Shown here piece by piece: positions 3,309 through 9,638 of a DNA stretch of 20,159 nucleotides. The number at the start of each line of letters is the position of its first letter. Position 1 is the stretch's first letter. A program made the translations under genes and the position numbers. The DNA lies in IMG/VR virus record IMGVR_UViG_3300032087_002837, positions 1 to 20,159 of that record; one strand, written 5' to 3'. Source of the DNA: a virus. The notes beneath the pieces are model-generated. The model did not search any database. It was not told the DNA's origin and saw only the letters and a list, made by a program, of their open reading frames with translations.

Positions 3309-4685
3309 ATGCAAATGCCTTCTAACGAGGTGCTGCAGGAGAAGTGGGCACCCCTTCTTGACTACGAAGGTCTTGATTCCATCAAAGACAATCATCGTAG
3401 AGCAGTAACCGCTCAACTCCTGGAAAACCAAGAAATCGCTCTTCGTGAGGAAAGAGACTTCCTCTCGGAATCCCCAACCAACTCTGTTGGTGCCGGTGGT
3501 TATACTTCCGCTGGTGGTCAAACCGTTGCTGGTTTTGACCCTGTTCTGATCTCCTTGATCAGACGCTCCATGCCTAACCTGGTCGCTTATGACCTCGCTG
3601 GCGTTCAGCCAATGACCGGTCCTACTGGACTGATCTTTGCAATGCGTTCCCGCTACAAGACTCAAGACGGAGCAGAAGCTCTGTTCGACGAGGCATATAC
3701 CGCATTCTCTGGACAAGACTCCAACTTCAACCGCACCGCCGGATTCACCGCTGGTAGCGTTGGTATGGGTACCACTGGTCAAACTGGTTCTAACCCTGCC
3801 GCTCTGAACCCAACTTCCGGTATCACTGGAAGCACCTATTCTGTAGGTCAGGGTCTTGCCACTACCGATGCTGAGAACCTTGGCGATGGCATCGGCGCTT
3901 TCAACGAGATGGCATTCTCGATTGAAAAGGTTACCGTTACAGCTAAGTCCCGTGCACTGAAAGCTGAGTACTCCTTGGAGTTGGCTCAGGACCTCAAGGC
4001 AATTCACGGTCTGAACGCTGAAGCAGAACTCGCCAACATCCTCAGCACTGAAATTCTTGCTGAGATCAACCGCGAAGTCATCAGAACCATCTATCGTGTT
4101 GCTGAGCAAGGCGCTACCGTCAACACTGCAACTGCTGGTGCTTTTGACCTTGACGTTGATTCCAACGGTCGTTGGAGTGTTGAGAAGTTCAAGGGTCTGA
4201 TCTTCCAAATCGAGCGTGACGCTAACGCAATTGCACAGCGCACTCGTAGAGGAAAGGGCAACATGATCATGTGCTCTGCTGACGTTGCTTCCGCTCTGAC
4301 CATGGCTGGTGTACTTGATTACACCCCTGCCCTGAACGCTAACCTGAACGTTGATGACACCGGTAACACCTTCGCTGGTGTTCTTGCTGGTAAGTATCGC
4401 GTCTACATTGACCCATATGGTGCTAATGGTGCCGCTGATCAGTACTACGTTGCTGGTTACAAGGGTTCCTCCCCATATGACGCTGGTCTCTTCTACTGCC
4501 CATACGTTCCCCTCCAAATGGTTCGTGCCGTTGGTCAGGACACCTTCCAACCCAAGATTGGATTCAAGACCCGCTACGGCATGGTCGCTAACCCATTCGC
4601 AGAAGGAACGAACGTTGGTGCCGGTGCTCTTACTCAGAACACCAACCGCTACTATCGTCGCGTTAAAGTTCAAAACCTTATGTGA
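3309..4685 (+). CDS. 23: major capsid protein gp23
   Basis: This is the HK97-fold major head protein. The 458 aa protein aligns along its length with T4 gp23 (521 aa): LLDYEGLDSI, RRSMPNLVAYDLAGVQPM, SRALKAEYSLELAQDLKAIH, AELANILSTEILAEINREV, GKYRVYIDPY, and QPKIGFKTRYGMVANPFAE. The T4 maturation cut (FLTE before Ala66) corresponds here to FLSE, residues 51-54, before Ser55, so mature protein probably starts at Ser55. The gene is clearly richer in GC and in C-ending codons (aac, ttc, gac, tac, acc) than its neighbours, as expected for the most highly expressed gene. No separate vertex gene 24 follows it. Confidence 0.99.
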   Translation: MQMPSNEVLQEKWAPLLDYEGLDSIKDNHRRAVTAQLLENQEIALREERDFLSESPTNSVGAGGYTSAGGQTVAGFDPVLISLIRRSMPNLVAYDLAGVQPMTGPTGLIFAMRSRYKTQDGAEALFDEAYTAFSGQDSNFNRTAGFTAGSVGMGTTGQTGSNPAALNPTSGITGSTYSVGQGLATTDAENLGDGIGAFNEMAFSIEKVTVTAKSRALKAEYSLELAQDLKAIHGLNAEAELANILSTEILAEINREVIRTIYRVAEQGATVNTATAGAFDLDVDSNGRWSVEKFKGLIFQIERDANAIAQRTRRGKGNMIMCSADVASALTMAGVLDYTPALNANLNVDDTGNTFAGVLAGKYRVYIDPYGANGAADQYYVAGYKGSSPYDAGLFYCPYVPLQMVRAVGQDTFQPKIGFKTRYGMVANPFAEGTNVGAGALTQNTNRYYRRVKVQNLM

Positions 4686-4706
4686 TCCTGGTTCACATAT
4701 CTTTTC

Positions 4707-4733
4707 GGGGGGTCTTCGGACCTCCCTTTTTTT
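4707..4733 (+). terminator. strong intrinsic terminator after gp23
   Basis: An 8-bp stem (bases 4707-4714 with 4719-4726, one G-U pair) closes a UUCG tetraloop with the favourable C-G closing pair, and is followed by seven T. It ends the head operon and sits 7 bases before the next late promoter. Confidence 0.93.
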
Positions 4734-4740
4734 GTCTAAA

Positions 4741-4748
4741 TATAAATA
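4741..4748 (+). promoter_or_regulatory. T4-type late promoter TATAAATA directly after the gp23 terminator
   Basis: A perfect TATAAATA ends only 9 bases before the ATG at 4758. With initiation about 6 bases downstream of the motif the mRNA leader would be about 4 bases, so translation from it would be nearly leaderless. Confidence 0.75.
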
Positions 4749-4757
4749 AAACTTCGT

Positions 4758-5072
4758 ATGAGATCTTTCAAAGAATTTCAAGAAAATGCCATATCATATG
4801 CTGCAAGTCTTCCTCCAGGAGTACGAGCAGATATGAAAAAGGGTGGAAAGACTCAATCCCCAGTTAGTGATGTGGCAGGATTAGCTGCTACCGGACTTGC
4901 TGTTAAGGCAGGTCTTGGTGGACCACTCTCTAGTGGTTTGAGTGCTTTATCAAAAAGTGATATGGCAAGAAACATTATTAGAAATTTGAGAACTAGAGGA
5001 TTAAAGCAGATTAGATCTGGGAAGCAAGGAAGTTCGAAGAAGTTTGGAACATTAGACACTGATACCCCATGA
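4758..5072 (+). CDS. small late protein with a T4-like capsid-targeting N-terminus (104 aa)
   Basis: I do not know an assigned function. The N-terminus MRSFKEFQENA closely follows the capsid-targeting sequence of T4 internal proteins (MKTYQEFIAEA), which directs them into the prohead before cleavage by gp21. The rest has an Ala/Gly-rich mildly hydrophobic stretch (residues ~38-65) and a basic C-terminal third (NLRTRGLKQIRSGKQGSSKK), suitable for contact with DNA. The gene follows the capsid gene behind its own terminator and late promoter, and its stop overlaps the next ATG (ATGA). A packaged internal head protein is the inference; the exact T4 cleavage rule is only partly met (QE then N). 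Confidence 0.85.
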   Translation: MRSFKEFQENAISYAASLPPGVRADMKKGGKTQSPVSDVAGLAATGLAVKAGLGGPLSSGLSALSKSDMARNIIRNLRTRGLKQIRSGKQGSSKKFGTLDTDTP

Positions 5073-5617
5073 GTTGCAATTTTGCTGACGATATAAGCAA
5101 CAGGAATTTTCTATCTCCAGTTGGTTTTAATTTTAGTCTTGCAAAGGAACCAAAGGTTTCTTTCTTTTGCACTAGTGCGAGGATACCTGAAATCAGTTTA
5201 GGTGTTGCAAAACAACCATCATATCTAAAAGATATTGATGTACCTGGAGAAAAATTAACTTACGGAGATCTTACTTTAAGATTTTTGGTTGATGAGGATA
5301 TGTCAAACTATATGGCAATCCACAATTGGTTAACTGGTCTTGGATTTCCAGAAACAACCCAAGATTTTAAAGATTTTATTATTAATGAAGATGGTATTCA
5401 AGATTTACAAGAACAATTTAGTGATGGTTCTTTAAATATTTTGAACAGCAACTATCGCGTAAATGCAATCGTCAAGTTTAAAGATTTATTTCCAGTAGCA
5501 TTGACATCTCTTGAGTTTGATACAAAAGCAACAGATATTCAATACTTTACAGCAGAAGCAACTTTCAAGTATACTGTATATAATATCCTTGATCAAGACA
5601 ACAGAACTCGCTTATGA
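5069..5617 (+). CDS. tail tube-fold protein (gp19-like; possibly the gene 3 equivalent)
   Basis: The 182 aa protein has the outline of the T4 tail tube protein gp19 (163 aa): an FFCTSARIPE segment matching the FQCKATALP region, then VPGEKLTYGDLTLRFLVDED followed by IHNWLTGLG, and KFKDLFPVALTSLEFDT near the C-terminus, matching the IKGLWPTNVGELQLDWD region. This is the beta-barrel fold of phage tail tubes and their relatives. The true gp19 of cyanophages normally lies upstream of gp20 with the sheath gene, so this copy is probably a paralogue with a tube-end or neck role; cyanophage annotations often place gene 3 (tail completion) here. It overlaps its neighbours by 4 bases on each side. Confidence 0.8.
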   Translation: MSCNFADDISNRNFLSPVGFNFSLAKEPKVSFFCTSARIPEISLGVAKQPSYLKDIDVPGEKLTYGDLTLRFLVDEDMSNYMAIHNWLTGLGFPETTQDFKDFIINEDGIQDLQEQFSDGSLNILNSNYRVNAIVKFKDLFPVALTSLEFDTKATDIQYFTAEATFKYTVYNILDQDNRTRL

Positions 5618-6045
5618 TGGACCTTGACAAAATTCAGGAGATGTGGCAGAAAGATGCTGTCATTGATCCTGATAATTTACATGATGAGTCTCTAAAAATT
5701 CCACAACTACATTCAAAATATTACACAATTTACAATACTCTCACTTTACTTAGAGAAAAAGCAAGAGATTCTTATAAGAAAATAAAACTTGAAAGGTACA
5801 ACTACTACACAGGAAAGGCACCTATAGAGGTTTACGAGAAAGAACCGTTTGATTATAAGGTTCGGGAGAAAGACGCCATACAGAGGCATCTAGACGCTGA
5901 TGAGAAGTTAAATACAATTGATTTGAAGATTAGGTATTACGATGTCCAATTAAAATTTTTGGAAGAAGTAATCAAAACAATCGCAAATAGAACATATCAA
6001 ATCAAAAACGCTATTGAGTGGCAAAAGTTTCAGGCAGGTTTCTAA
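5614..6045 (+). CDS. uvsY: recombination mediator UvsY
   Basis: UvsY loads the UvsX recombinase onto gp32-coated single-stranded DNA. Length (143 aa) matches T4 UvsY (137). Similarity runs throughout: an N-terminal DLDKIQEMWQKDAVID, LHSKYYTIYN, the basic YKKIKLERYNYYTGKAP matching the T4 LKARLDYYSGRG DNA-binding region, and the end AIEWQKFQAGF matching DMRAFEAGK. It begins inside the stop of the tail gene (ATGATGG; the second Met at 5617 is an alternative start) and its stop overlaps the next ATG (TAATG), so it is translationally coupled on both sides. Confidence 0.93.
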   Translation: MMDLDKIQEMWQKDAVIDPDNLHDESLKIPQLHSKYYTIYNTLTLLREKARDSYKKIKLERYNYYTGKAPIEVYEKEPFDYKVREKDAIQRHLDADEKLNTIDLKIRYYDVQLKFLEEVIKTIANRTYQIKNAIEWQKFQAGF

Positions 6046-6263
6046 TGGATGAAGATTGGATTTATCAGGATGAAGAATTTGATGAAGATCTTCCTTATAT
6101 TGAACTTCAGTTTGGTATAAGCGATTTATATCTCTTGTACGAATCTGTAAAGACTCGTCATGAGAAATGGACTGGAGGTGACCCAGAAGAACAATCAAGA
6201 CTTGCTTATTTGAGAGATTTCTTGTATAGAGTTGTTCTTGAGTACAAATTCAAAATGGATTAG
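6045..6263 (+). CDS. hypothetical acidic protein (72 aa) between uvsY and uvsW
   Basis: The sequence starts MDEDWIYQDEEFDEDLPYIE and is strongly acidic at the N-terminus, then forms two helices (SDLYLLYESVKTRHEKW and RLAYLRDFLYRVVLEYKF). I chose the ATG at 6045, which overlaps the uvsY stop by one base, over an in-frame ATG at 6018 inside uvsY. No family is recognised. Co-translation with UvsY makes a recombination-related role possible but unproven. Confidence 0.8.
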   Translation: MDEDWIYQDEEFDEDLPYIELQFGISDLYLLYESVKTRHEKWTGGDPEEQSRLAYLRDFLYRVVLEYKFKMD

Positions 6264-6271
6264 CATAAATA
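6264..6271 (+). promoter_or_regulatory. late promoter variant CATAAATA
   Basis: CATAAATA begins right after the stop of the preceding gene and ends 21 bases before the ATG at 6293, the same spacing as at the perfect late promoters in this window. Only the first base differs from consensus. Confidence 0.6.
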
Positions 6272-6292
6272 CTACACAACAATAATTTAATT

Positions 6293-6565
6293 ATGGCAAT
6301 CAGTACAGATACATCAATCTACGTAGCAGGTATCACGACTTATACAATTGATAGCGTAACAGATACTGAATTTACAGTATCTTATCCTGTCGGTGTAGGA
6401 GCTACTTTTACGAGAAAAATTAATCGTAGTGGAGATTCCACAGAAGATGAAGCACGTTTAGATTCTCATCTCTTGGCAGTTAATCATAAAGTGCATGTTG
6501 GTGTAATTTCTACAGTTCCACCAGAAGATCCTGCAGCACCAGAAGAAACCGATCCTGTAGGGTGA
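6293..6565 (+). CDS. hypothetical late protein (90 aa), beta-rich
   Basis: The N-terminal two thirds alternate polar and hydrophobic residues (TSIYVAGITTYTIDSVTDTE, FTVSYPVGVGATFTRKINR), suggesting a small beta sheet; the C-terminus is a Pro/Glu/Ala tail (VPPEDPAAPEETDPVG). No membrane segment or signal is present. It has its own late promoter, and its stop lies inside the next late promoter. That pattern fits a minor virion protein placed among recombination genes, but I recognise no family. Confidence 0.75.
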   Translation: MAISTDTSIYVAGITTYTIDSVTDTEFTVSYPVGVGATFTRKINRSGDSTEDEARLDSHLLAVNHKVHVGVISTVPPEDPAAPEETDPVG

Positions 6566-6571
6566 TAAATA
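6564..6571 (+). promoter_or_regulatory. late promoter variant GATAAATA before uvsW
   Basis: GATAAATA overlaps the preceding stop and ends 23 bases before the uvsW ATG. Initiation about 6 bases downstream would fall near 6577, inside the left arm of the hairpin at 6571-6593. Confidence 0.6.
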
Positions 6572-6593
6572 TCCATAGGTGAATCCTATGGAT
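6571..6593 (+). promoter_or_regulatory. RBS-overlapping hairpin upstream of uvsW
   Basis: ATCCATAGG (6571-6579) and CCTATGGAT (6585-6593) form a perfect 9-bp stem with a 5-base loop. The only Shine-Dalgarno-like string before uvsW, AGGTGA (6577-6582), is in the stem and loop, and the ATG follows 2 bases after the right arm. Read-through mRNA would carry the whole hairpin; mRNA from the late promoter at 6564 would lack most of the left arm. Confidence 0.65.
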
Positions 6594-6594
6594 T

Positions 6595-8058
6595 ATGTCT
6601 CATTTGATAATTTCTAAGAAGAACGAGGTATATCTTCACGTAAAAGCGGAACCTCATGTGTATTATGAACTGGCAGACCAGTTTACGTTTGAGGTTCCAG
6701 GTGCAAAATTTATGCCCCAATACCGTAGTAAGTATTGGGATGGAAAAATTCGTTTATTTAATACACAGACTGGTGAGGTTTATGTTGGTCTGTTAGATAA
6801 AATTACAAGTTTTTGTGAGTCTCATGGGTATACTTATGAATTCACAAATAATAAGTTTTATGGTACACCTTTTGAGGTAAATGAGCTTATTTCAAAAGAA
6901 GGTGTCAAAGATTATATGACATCTGTATCTAAGTATGCTCCAAGGGACTATCAAGTAGAGGGAGTATACGACGCCCTAAAACATAATAGAAGGTTGTTGA
7001 TATCCCCAACTGCCTCTGGAAAGTCTCTGATGATATATTCTGTTGTGAGATATCACGTTGAGAAAGGACGAAATATTCTGATAGTCGTTCCGACGACTTC
7101 CCTAGTAGAACAGATGTATAAAGACTTTGCAGACTATGGTTGGGACGTAGGTTCATTTTGCCACAAGATTTATGCGGGACGTGAAAGAGAGACCGATTCT
7201 CAGGTGATTATCACCACCTGGCAGTCCATCTACAAACTACCCCGCAAATACTTTTCAAGATTTAATGTGGTCGTTGGAGATGAAGCACACCAGTTCAAAT
7301 CAAAGTCTTTAATATCTATAATGACAAAACTTGCTGATGCAAAGTATCGTTATGGTTTTACTGGTACATTGGATGGAACACAAACACACAAATGGGTTTT
7401 AGAAGGATTGTTTGGCCCATCATATAAGATTATTAAAACTAAAGAACTCATGGCTAAAGGTCATGTTGCCCAATTAGATATTAATGTGCTTCTACTGAAG
7501 CACCCAGCGCATAAATTTGAAACTTTTGAGGATGAAGTTCAATATATTATTAACCATGAACGTCGAAATAAATTCATAAGAAATCTTGCTCTTGATCTTA
7601 AAGGTAATACTCTTATTTTATTTTCCAGAGTCGAAGGTCATGGGCAACCATTATTCGATTTAATAAATAATCGTAGTGTAGAAGATCGTCATGTATTCTT
7701 TGTTCATGGTGGAGTGGCAACTGAAGATCGTGAAAAAGTAAGAGAGATTACGGAAAAAGAAAACAACGCAATCATTGTTGCTTCATACGGAACATTTAGT
7801 ACAGGAATTAACATTAAAAATCTTCATAATGTTATTTTTGCTTCTCCTTCTAAATCCAGAATACGTAACCTGCAAAGTATCGGCAGAGTACTCAGAAAAG
7901 GGAATAACAAAACAAAAGCAACTTTATATGATATCGCTGACGATATATCCTACAAATCCAGGAGAAATTATACCCTTAATCATTTAATAGAAAGAATTAA
8001 AGTTTATAATGAAGAAAACTTTAACTACGATATAGTAAACATACCACTTAAGAACTAA
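6595..8058 (+). CDS. uvsW: UvsW superfamily 2 DNA/RNA-DNA helicase
   Basis: UvsW is a late T4 helicase that unwinds R-loops at origins and branched recombination intermediates, moving replication from origin- to recombination-driven initiation. The 487 aa protein has the N-terminal DNA-binding region with YWDGKIRLFN (residues ~47-56), RDYQ at 117-120, Walker A SPTASGKS at 137-144, DEAH at 229-232, motif III FTGTLDG, and motif VI QSIGRVLRKG from 427. The T4 protein is similar in length and order. The start at 6595 matches the T4 N-terminus; an out-of-frame ATG at 6588 opens only a 9-codon frame. A late promoter and hairpin upstream suggest late-only translation. Confidence 0.97.
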   Translation: MSHLIISKKNEVYLHVKAEPHVYYELADQFTFEVPGAKFMPQYRSKYWDGKIRLFNTQTGEVYVGLLDKITSFCESHGYTYEFTNNKFYGTPFEVNELISKEGVKDYMTSVSKYAPRDYQVEGVYDALKHNRRLLISPTASGKSLMIYSVVRYHVEKGRNILIVVPTTSLVEQMYKDFADYGWDVGSFCHKIYAGRERETDSQVIITTWQSIYKLPRKYFSRFNVVVGDEAHQFKSKSLISIMTKLADAKYRYGFTGTLDGTQTHKWVLEGLFGPSYKIIKTKELMAKGHVAQLDINVLLLKHPAHKFETFEDEVQYIINHERRNKFIRNLALDLKGNTLILFSRVEGHGQPLFDLINNRSVEDRHVFFVHGGVATEDREKVREITEKENNAIIVASYGTFSTGINIKNLHNVIFASPSKSRIRNLQSIGRVLRKGNNKTKATLYDIADDISYKSRRNYTLNHLIERIKVYNEENFNYDIVNIPLKN

Positions 8059-8059
8059 T

Positions 8060-8497
8060 ATGGGAGATGAATTTTACGCAATATTAAAACTTACATCTGG
8101 TGAAGAGATATTATCTCTCATTTCTATCGATGAAAACGATGGTGATCCTTTAGTTGTTTTGCAAAATCCAATTACTATGAAAGTTCTTCATAGTCCTCAT
8201 GGAATGCACATTAAAGTTAAATCATGGATAGAAATGTCTTCTGATGATTTCTTTATCATAAAACCTGATAAAATTATGACAATGACAGAAACTAAAGAAG
8301 AAAGATTGATTGAGATTTACAATAGTTATCTTGAAGATGATAGTGATTTGGATTTATACAGTCCTTCAGAACCTTCTATTGAAAAATCTTCTGGTAAGAT
8401 TAAACCATCAAGAAAAATGGGGTATATTTCTTCAGTAGAAGAAGCAAGAAAAACATTAGAAAATATTTTTAAACTTGAAGATACTAAAGAAAGCTAA
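8060..8497 (+). CDS. conserved hypothetical, possible Sm-like N-terminus (145 aa)
   Basis: The N-terminus (EFYAILKLTSGEEILSLISI) reads like the first strands of an Sm/LSm-like barrel, where a Leu-Thr-Ser-Gly-Glu-Glu turn is common, followed by a beta-rich stretch to about residue 75 (MKVLHSPHGMHIKVKSW, FFIIKPDKIMTM). The rest is an acidic linker and a C-terminal helix (VEEARKTLENIFKLED). The start is one base after the uvsW stop, so it is coupled to uvsW. The family is frequent next to uvsW in cyanophages as far as I recall, but no function is known to me. The Sm-like reading is a guess from pattern only. Confidence 0.8.
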   Translation: MGDEFYAILKLTSGEEILSLISIDENDGDPLVVLQNPITMKVLHSPHGMHIKVKSWIEMSSDDFFIIKPDKIMTMTETKEERLIEIYNSYLEDDSDLDLYSPSEPSIEKSSGKIKPSRKMGYISSVEEARKTLENIFKLEDTKES

Positions 8498-8546
8498 AAC
8501 CTCATCTTCAAACCTAACAAAGGTAGTCTACTCATAATTCATCATG

Positions 8547-8576
8547 TTGTCAAGCCTTTAAAAAATGTGTTATAAT
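8547..8576 (+). promoter_or_regulatory. sigma70-type promoter upstream of gp55
   Basis: TTGTCA (8547-8552) and a perfect TATAAT (8571-8576) are 18 bases apart in the 113-base gap before gp55. This fits transcription of the late sigma factor by unmodified host RNA polymerase before late promoters can be used. Confidence 0.8.
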
Positions 8577-8610
8577 AAAAACAACTTATAATACTTAAGA
8601 GTAATGAATT

Positions 8611-9135
8611 ATGCCCAAGAAGAAATCAGAACATTATGTTAATAATAAAGAGTTGTTGGAGGCAATGATTAACTACCGTGCACGGGTGGAAGTATCATAT
8701 AAAAAGGTTTTTAATAGAGATCTCACCGAACAACCAAAACAAGAAAGAGGAAAGCAGTGGGAGGGTAAACCACCGATTCCAAATTATCTTGGTGAGTGCT
8801 TCTTAAAAATCGCAACACATCTCTCATACAAACCCAACTTTGTTAACTACATGTTCCGTGAGGATATGATTTCTGACGGCATTGAAAATTGTGTTCAATA
8901 TATTCATAACTTTGACCCAGAAAAGTCAAAGAATCCTTTTGCATATTTTACTCAAATTATTCACTATGCTTTTCTGAGACGCATACAGAAGGAAAAGAAG
9001 CAACTGGATATCAAGACTAAAATTATTGAGAAGACCGGGTTTGATGAGGTTATGATGGTTGACGACAGCTTGCTTTCTGGACATAGTTCGGACTACAACA
9101 CTATTAAAGATAATATTCAATATAGAAATCGTTGA
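8611..9135 (+). CDS. 55: late-transcription sigma factor gp55
   Basis: gp55 replaces the host sigma factor and directs RNA polymerase to TATAAATA promoters. The 174 aa size is close to T4 gp55 (185). Residues ~55-130 (NYLGECFLKIATHLSYKPNF, EDMISDGIENCVQYIHNFDP, NPFAYFTQIIHYAFLRRIQK) match the conserved sigma region 2-like part, including the helix that contacts the -10 element. The gene lies behind a sigma70-type promoter, with seven to eight of its target motifs elsewhere in the window. The start at 8611 is the first ATG after the promoter. Confidence 0.95.
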   Translation: MPKKKSEHYVNNKELLEAMINYRARVEVSYKKVFNRDLTEQPKQERGKQWEGKPPIPNYLGECFLKIATHLSYKPNFVNYMFREDMISDGIENCVQYIHNFDPEKSKNPFAYFTQIIHYAFLRRIQKEKKQLDIKTKIIEKTGFDEVMMVDDSLLSGHSSDYNTIKDNIQYRNR

Positions 9136-9166
9136 ATACTATTATTTTATAAATAGTTATAGTATT
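9135..9166 (+). promoter_or_regulatory. inverted repeat enclosing the late promoter of the endonuclease gene
   Basis: AATACTAT (9135-9142) and ATAGTATT (9159-9166) are perfect reverse complements around a 16-base loop that contains TATAAATA. Transcripts entering from gp55 could fold it; late transcripts starting near 9161 could not. The stem is all A/T but for two pairs, so it is weak. Confidence 0.4.
9148..9155 (+). promoter_or_regulatory. T4-type late promoter TATAAATA before the endonuclease gene
   Basis: A perfect TATAAATA lies 12 bases after the gp55 stop and ends 21 bases before the ATG at 9177. Confidence 0.75.
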
Positions 9167-9176
9167 ATAGAAATCT

Positions 9177-9638
9177 ATGAATACCTTTATTGGAAAACCT
9201 TGTAAAAAGTGTGGAAACACAGAAAGATATTCATCTGGTAATAAACCTTGTGTCAAATGTGCAAAAGAAAACTCTAAGCAGAGGTCAAAAAACGGAAAAA
9301 GAAACGAGTGGTCTAGAAAAAACAAAGATAAAATAAACTCCAAAAATAATATCTACTACCACTCGTTAACGACTGAAGAAAAGATACTTAGGAATAGAAA
9401 GCAACAGGTTTCTCTTTACGGATTGACTTTAGAGGACTATGATGCTATGATGGAAAGACAAAATGGGGTCTGTGCCATTTGTTCTACAAGAACGAAAGGT
9501 AATCTGCATATAGACCACAACCATCAAACAAATGAGGTTAGAGGACTGTTATGTGGAAAATGTAATCGTGCAATAGGATTACTAAACGACGATGTTTCTT
9601 TATTTACAAAAGCAATTACTTATTTGAAATGCGTGTAG
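9177..9638 (+). CDS. HNH endonuclease of the recombination endonuclease VII type (153 aa)
   Basis: The C-terminal half carries the endonuclease VII signature: CAIC, then IDHNHQTNEVRGLLCGKCNR, then a helix. This gives a zinc site of four Cys and the His-containing catalytic centre, as in T4 gp49 (CLIC ... LDHDHELN ... VRGLLCNLCN). The N-terminus has an extra CKKCG...CVKC zinc ribbon and a basic Lys/Asn/Arg linker, a layout common in free-standing phage nucleases. It could be the phage's Holliday-junction resolvase or a mobile homing-type nuclease. It sits between gp55 and gp47, has its own late promoter, and its last codons overlap the gp47 start by 10 bases. Confidence 0.9.
   Translation: MNTFIGKPCKKCGNTERYSSGNKPCVKCAKENSKQRSKNGKRNEWSRKNKDKINSKNNIYYHSLTTEEKILRNRKQQVSLYGLTLEDYDAMMERQNGVCAICSTRTKGNLHIDHNHQTNEVRGLLCGKCNRAIGLLNDDVSLFTKAITYLKCV

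Follow-up and report, generated by a model that had tools for sequence, protein, structure and literature searches.

The stretch of DNA analysed here (20,159 nucleotides; hereafter 'the window') is a 20-kb segment of a T4-like cyanophage in which the genes follow one another in a single direction, in the order gp21-gp22-gp23-gp3-uvsY-two small ORFs-uvsW-small ORF-gp55-endonuclease VII-like ORF-gp47-gp46. The uvsW product was identified by its match to a PHROG DNA helicase family (E 1.8e-121) and is 89% identical to the annotated UvsW of S-SKS1. The heptamer ATAAATA occurs 11 times in the window, always on the + strand (5.6 copies would be expected over both strands) and mostly 10–30 nt upstream of a gene; the late promoter consensus of cyanophages S-PM2 and Syn9 is NATAAATA (PMC2984593).

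The original prediction, made from the letters of the window, described a perfect 9-bp inverted repeat with a 5-base loop adjoining a late promoter before uvsW, and its coordinates were exact (Table 1). The repeat was also said to cover the only Shine-Dalgarno-like string ahead of the gene, which holds for the AGG of that string (paired in the stem) and not for its TGA (located in the loop).

Table 1. Features at and upstream of the uvsW start in the window
Feature	Position	Strand	Remarks
Strong terminator after gp23	4707-4726	+	terminator scan
Promoter-like element in gp3 3' end	5543-5575	+	TTTACA 5546-5551, 18 nt, TATACT 5570-5575; candidate early uvsY promoter
uvsY, recombination mediator	5614-6045	+	upstream of uvsW, co-directional
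Late promoter CATAAATA of small ORF 6293-6565	6264-6271	+	second read-through source into uvsW
Late promoter of uvsW, GATAAATA	6564-6571	+	adjoins left stem arm
Hairpin left arm, ATCCATAGG	6571-6579	+	6/9 bases upstream of predicted +1
Predicted late +1, an A	6577	+	T4 spacing (PMC2988020); A in 89% of distinct relative leaders
Shine-Dalgarno-like AGGTGA	6577-6582	+	12 nt from ATG
Hairpin loop TGAAT	6580-6584	+	read from sequence
Hairpin right arm, CCTATGGAT	6585-6593	+	ends 1 base before ATG (T = 6594)
uvsW, DNA/RNA helicase, 487 aa	6595-8058	+	ATG at 6595

Predicted folding of the uvsW leader and transcripts entering it

Two perfect 9-bp repeats with loops of 3–8 nt are present in the 20 kb, against 0.8 expected from dinucleotide shuffles; a repeat of this kind is by itself unremarkable, and it is the position of this one that is remarkable. 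The 34-nt leader from promoter to ATG has a predicted folding energy of −12.6 kcal/mol, a value equalled by 0.26% of shuffles (P 0.0026), and within the window no other of the 12 leaders that follow a late promoter (the next folds at −5.7 kcal/mol), nor any other of the 26 gene starts checked, is as stable. The structure was also considered as an intrinsic terminator and rejected, since no T-run follows the stem and it is absent from the terminator scan. A search of window positions 4600–9200 against Rfam gave no match at the gathering score.

Late promoters of T4 occupy positions −13 to −6 (PMC2988020), a spacing that by analogy would place the start of the late uvsW transcript at 6577. RNA started there keeps three of the nine left-arm bases, and refolding confirmed the anticipated consequence of losing the other six, with the predicted energy changing from −12.6 to −2.9 kcal/mol. 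RNA beginning at 6572 or 6573 retains the stem (−11.6 and −10.2 kcal/mol, respectively), and RNA beginning at 6576 or later loses it (−2.9 kcal/mol). A late start at 6573 or further upstream would leave the stem intact (−10.2 kcal/mol or better), so that a four-base shift in the start position would decide the lock. The predicted cost of opening the region from −15 to +5 is 15.1 kcal/mol on read-through mRNA of the window versus 5.7 kcal/mol on its late mRNA, with medians of 9.6 and 4.2 kcal/mol for the same two transcripts over 117 related loci.

On the + strand of the window, the terminator scan listed nothing in the interval from uvsY to uvsW. The terminator after gp23 should stop most mRNA of the capsid operon, and late promoters at 4735/4741 and 6264 lie upstream of uvsW and would also give late read-through mRNA. 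An additional promoter-like element, within the 3' end of gp3, sits 38 nt before uvsY. Of 95 relatives, 75% have a sigma-70-like site (score of at least 10/12) within the 100 nt upstream of uvsY, versus 2.8% of shuffles. Across relatives the synonymous choice in the eleven gp3 codons that span the element is frozen and the flanking codons vary (TAC 94% versus 32% in general usage, ACA 92% versus 32%, TTC 90% versus 18% and AAG 90% versus 40%), so coding alone does not explain the element. The simplest reading of this candidate is that it is probably the uvsY promoter, and the site could yield early read-through mRNA into uvsW. The frozen codons, TACTTTACAGCAGARG....CTTTCAAGTATACT, also take in the spacer between the hexamers, which suggests something beyond a promoter. 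A conserved sigma-70-like site of its own likewise precedes gp55 (8547-8576). In the main texts that we found of published cyanophage infection time courses, uvsY and uvsW are not named.

Conservation of promoter and hairpin among related phages

Related uvsW loci were drawn from IMG/VR (several contig sets, largely overlapping) and named phages from GenBank, giving 117 loci that are distinct in leader or protein and 87 distinct leaders. A late promoter of the form [N][A/C]TAAATA begins 26–33 nt before the uvsW ATG in all 117 distinct relatives of the clade; NCTAAATA is a late promoter variant of Aeromonas phage Aeh1 (PMC2988020). Folding at −5 kcal/mol or better is predicted for 50 of the 87 distinct leaders, and the remaining 37 are weaker, some of them without any fold; several subclades retain the late promoter and lack a stable hairpin. 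All 32 members of the subclade that contains the window, which was chosen for analysis as the smallest well supported set around it (support 98 in a quick protein tree), carry the hairpin. Among the cultured phages, P-SSM2, P-SSM5, S-SKS1 and S-SRM01 have the same arrangement, with the P-SSM2 leader laid out as in the window and its late 5' end predicted six bases after TCTAAATA.

Where the hairpin is present the stem sequences differ and pairing is retained (ATTCATAGG/CTTATGAAT, ACATATAGG/CCTATATGT, TCATAAC/GTTATGA and TTTGTATC/GATATAAA). Compensation in the stems of relatives had been named beforehand as a test, and in 30 ungapped relative leaders of equal length, scored against the pairing that the window sequence by itself defines, the uncompensated variation that would have spoken against the hairpin was not seen. 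The covariation score was 0.534 versus 0.272 in shuffles and was reached by none of 500 shuffles; both sides have changed in six of the nine stem pairs, with 39 double-change cells versus 14.3 in shuffles. Standard pairs are formed in 91.9% of pair cells, against 78.4% when shuffled and 29–46% with one arm slid by 1–3 bases. Kinship of the sequences inflates the shuffle tests, and the slid-arm controls share that kinship.

The departures from Watson-Crick pairing bear on the nature of the conserved structure. In fixed pairs we counted 38 G-U (G-T) against 4 A-C (p 2.8e-8); since G-U is stable in + strand RNA and A-C would mark the other strand, the structure appears to be kept as + strand RNA, and the excess points to an mRNA structure and not a DNA palindrome. 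Part of the asymmetry could reflect a left-arm AGG that is conserved on other grounds, with the bases opposite it free to drift. A palindrome acting in the DNA, as a protein-binding site or a cruciform at the late promoter, would fit the way in which the arms adjoin that promoter, but it gives no reason for a G-T preference on one strand, and the + strand also folds better on average than the other (−5.67 versus −4.20 kcal/mol). It is the pairing, moreover, and not the stem sequence that is conserved; we rejected this reading on the G-T versus A-C asymmetry and consider it very improbable. Still less credible is a functionless chance repeat: the number of perfect 9-bp repeats expected in 20 kb and the relatives that lack a hairpin are what such an origin would lead one to find, and it was rejected on the covariation and leader-shuffle results, with the strand asymmetry and the rank of the leader among late leaders pointing the same way. 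Finally, 312 of the 470 pairs in the folded leaders draw their 5' base from sequence that lies before the predicted +1 and that the late mRNA would lack. The pairing would accordingly be maintained for RNA initiated further upstream and not for the late mRNA.

The sequence AGGTGA is kept in the subclade of the window and absent from other hairpin-bearing relatives, and many relatives offer no good Shine-Dalgarno sequence. The stem is kept even in relatives where a Shine-Dalgarno sequence is missing, and in some of them it takes in part of the AUG. A block to the start region is accordingly safer wording than a block to the Shine-Dalgarno. The Shine-Dalgarno part is the weakest of the account, as 12 nt is far and AGGTGA would form the extreme 5' terminus of the late mRNA.

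As a separate observation, most of the distinct uvsW leaders keep a TGA that in the predicted late mRNA stands at +4 to +6 (window 6580-6582), 54 of the 87 at exactly this place. It is kept with or without the hairpin and is rare in other late leaders (4/92).

T4 precedents and a candidate translational lock

Start regions locked in early mRNA and freed in late mRNA have been described in T4 for e, soc, gene 49 and I-TevI (PMC3014915) and for I-TevI and segB (PMC2988022), and e, soc and 49 had been correctly invoked as precedents for the hairpin and late-promoter arrangement. When the same script was applied blind to 46 T4 late-promoter leaders, with rank set by how much upstream sequence adds to stability, the first five places went to gene 49, I-TevI, segB, e and soc (identities being taken from the T4 annotation). 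The scan thus recovers all the well-known T4 cases and is usable for finding further locked genes; it ranks uvsW first of 12 leaders in the window, first of 61 in S-SKS1 and second of 59 in P-SSM2.

In e, soc and 49, as is predicted for uvsW of the window, a hairpin covers the start region on mRNA initiated upstream and the late mRNA lacks its 5' arm, although the genes and the host are different. The T4 hairpins usually hold a good Shine-Dalgarno sequence (AGGAGG in e), whereas that of cyanophage uvsW is weak or missing. The same promoter-in-hairpin layout is found, within early operons, in T4 I-TevI and segB and in mobE of phage Aeh1 (PMC2988022); those genes encode homing endonucleases, in contrast to the core recombination and replication helicase encoded by uvsW. 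Late-promoter expression is reported for the T4 orthologue (PMC3016281), as had been stated, yet its sequence has neither a late promoter nor a hairpin directly before the start. T4 uvsW also lies opposite to uvsY, unlike the co-directional pair of the cyanophages; early mRNA of uvsY therefore cannot extend into it, and no lock against uvsY mRNA is needed.

We consider it likely that the hairpin is a cis-acting translational lock on uvsW that is released on mRNA from the late promoter. Messenger RNA entering uvsW from any upstream promoter would carry the whole 9-bp hairpin, which, lying immediately ahead of the start codon, would hinder 30S binding. Transcripts from the gp55-dependent late promoter would start at about 6577 without six of the nine left-arm bases, form no stem and be translated. 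Because UvsY is expected to be required before late transcription and a conserved sigma-70-like site precedes its gene, a single stretch of genome would likely yield UvsY early and UvsW late, and in many marine cyanophages the production of UvsW is probably confined to late infection. UvsW of T4 unwinds origin R-loops and helps to end origin-dependent replication (PMC3016281), and by analogy the benefit might lie in avoiding too-early unwinding of such R-loops. We infer the +1 position, the early read-through, the lowered ribosome binding and this benefit. As to the lock for late-only UvsW that was originally proposed, covariation and the predicted release speak for it, with three points to be softened: the hairpin is lineage-specific, the role given to the Shine-Dalgarno sequence is better widened to the start region, and timing need not be the only purpose.

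The last of these points touches on another possible use of the same hairpin, which might bar translation off abundant late read-through mRNA so that the own promoter of uvsW alone sets the UvsW level. Such mRNA would come from the upstream late promoters (4735/4741 and 6264), after which no terminator was found before uvsW, and a lock would work on any mRNA initiated upstream; this use does not account for most relatives having a lock rather than a terminator, unless downstream genes need the read-through, and the promoter-like site before uvsY suggests that early mRNA crosses the hairpin too. Such insulation or dose control is conceivable, and we give it less than even weight. Since the lock would also silence late read-through mRNA, timing is not its sole possible purpose, and it may serve timing, dosage or both. 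A function in mRNA stability or processing instead of ribosome binding (for example, a site related to RNase III or RNase E 5' of uvsW) would give the same covariation, and processing close to start regions is common in phage mRNAs. We think this unlikely, as what is conserved is where the hairpin stands with respect to start codon and late promoter, and the nearest precedents act on initiation (PMC3014915).

The mechanism is known from T4; uvsW and cyanophages are not among the reported cases in the literature that we found, in a search that most subscription journals lay outside. A translational lock on uvsW would bring a core recombination helicase of abundant marine phages under this classic control, whose T4 examples are lysis, capsid and homing genes, and would account for how a late gene can be silenced behind an early one in a phage with most genes in one orientation. 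The evolutionary support for such a lock exceeds resemblance in a single sequence.

Distribution of the hairpin and other candidate elements

The hairpin lock is, on these comparisons, lineage-specific and not universal among cyanophages. The orthologous uvsW of Syn9-type cyanophages is usually close behind uvsY, as in the window, but none of the 63 distinct loci has a late promoter; the hairpin is lacking too, and the start follows or overlaps the preceding gene. With a hairpin weak or absent in some subclades and in the Syn9 types, the lock would be dispensable in some lineages. It appears where uvsW has its own promoter and follows a co-directional uvsY, a consistent picture and not a test. 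Two Syn9-type loci (L320 and L322) have no late promoter, yet show an 11-bp hairpin that runs into the uvsW start codon (−11.6 to −12.8 kcal/mol), and uvsW of ACG-2014f has a −7.9 kcal/mol hairpin without a recognisable late promoter.

In some relatives (L064, L203, L219, L235, L238, L285 and others) a strong intrinsic terminator lies directly upstream of the uvsW late promoter, which offers a lead to another way of halting read-through. Lineages with the terminator and those with the hairpin differ in raw contrast (medians of −1.6 versus −6.5 kcal/mol, p 0.0008), but the contrast was lost when lineages were paired on the tree (median p 1 over 5 independent pairs), so that replacement of the one by the other stays a lead.

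Several further elements were noted in passing. The endonuclease VII-like ORF (9177-9638) in the gap between gp55 and gp47 has its own promoter, TATAAATA (9148-9155), and no hairpin; it is absent from that place in S-SKS1 and P-SSM2 and is perhaps a mobile gene. The leader of the small ORF after gp20 (1004-1035) folds across its late promoter (−5.7 kcal/mol, with −4.7 for the P-SSM2 counterpart). Divergent, overlapping late promoters in a palindromic gap are present in P-SSM2 (5573-5607), Syn9 (5141-5181), S-SKS1 (189168-189209) and T4 (77337-77385), and in T4, P-SSM2 and Syn9 the gap is flanked on one side by a gene 4-like (head completion) gene, as judged by protein resemblance. A second candidate lock precedes the hypothetical gene PSSM2_212 downstream of nrdB, where the late promoter lies inside a −9.9 kcal/mol hairpin before the start (L366 1994; P-SSM2 171461-171495); it is kept in relatives (L382, L383, L384 and L390), with its sequence changed in L390.
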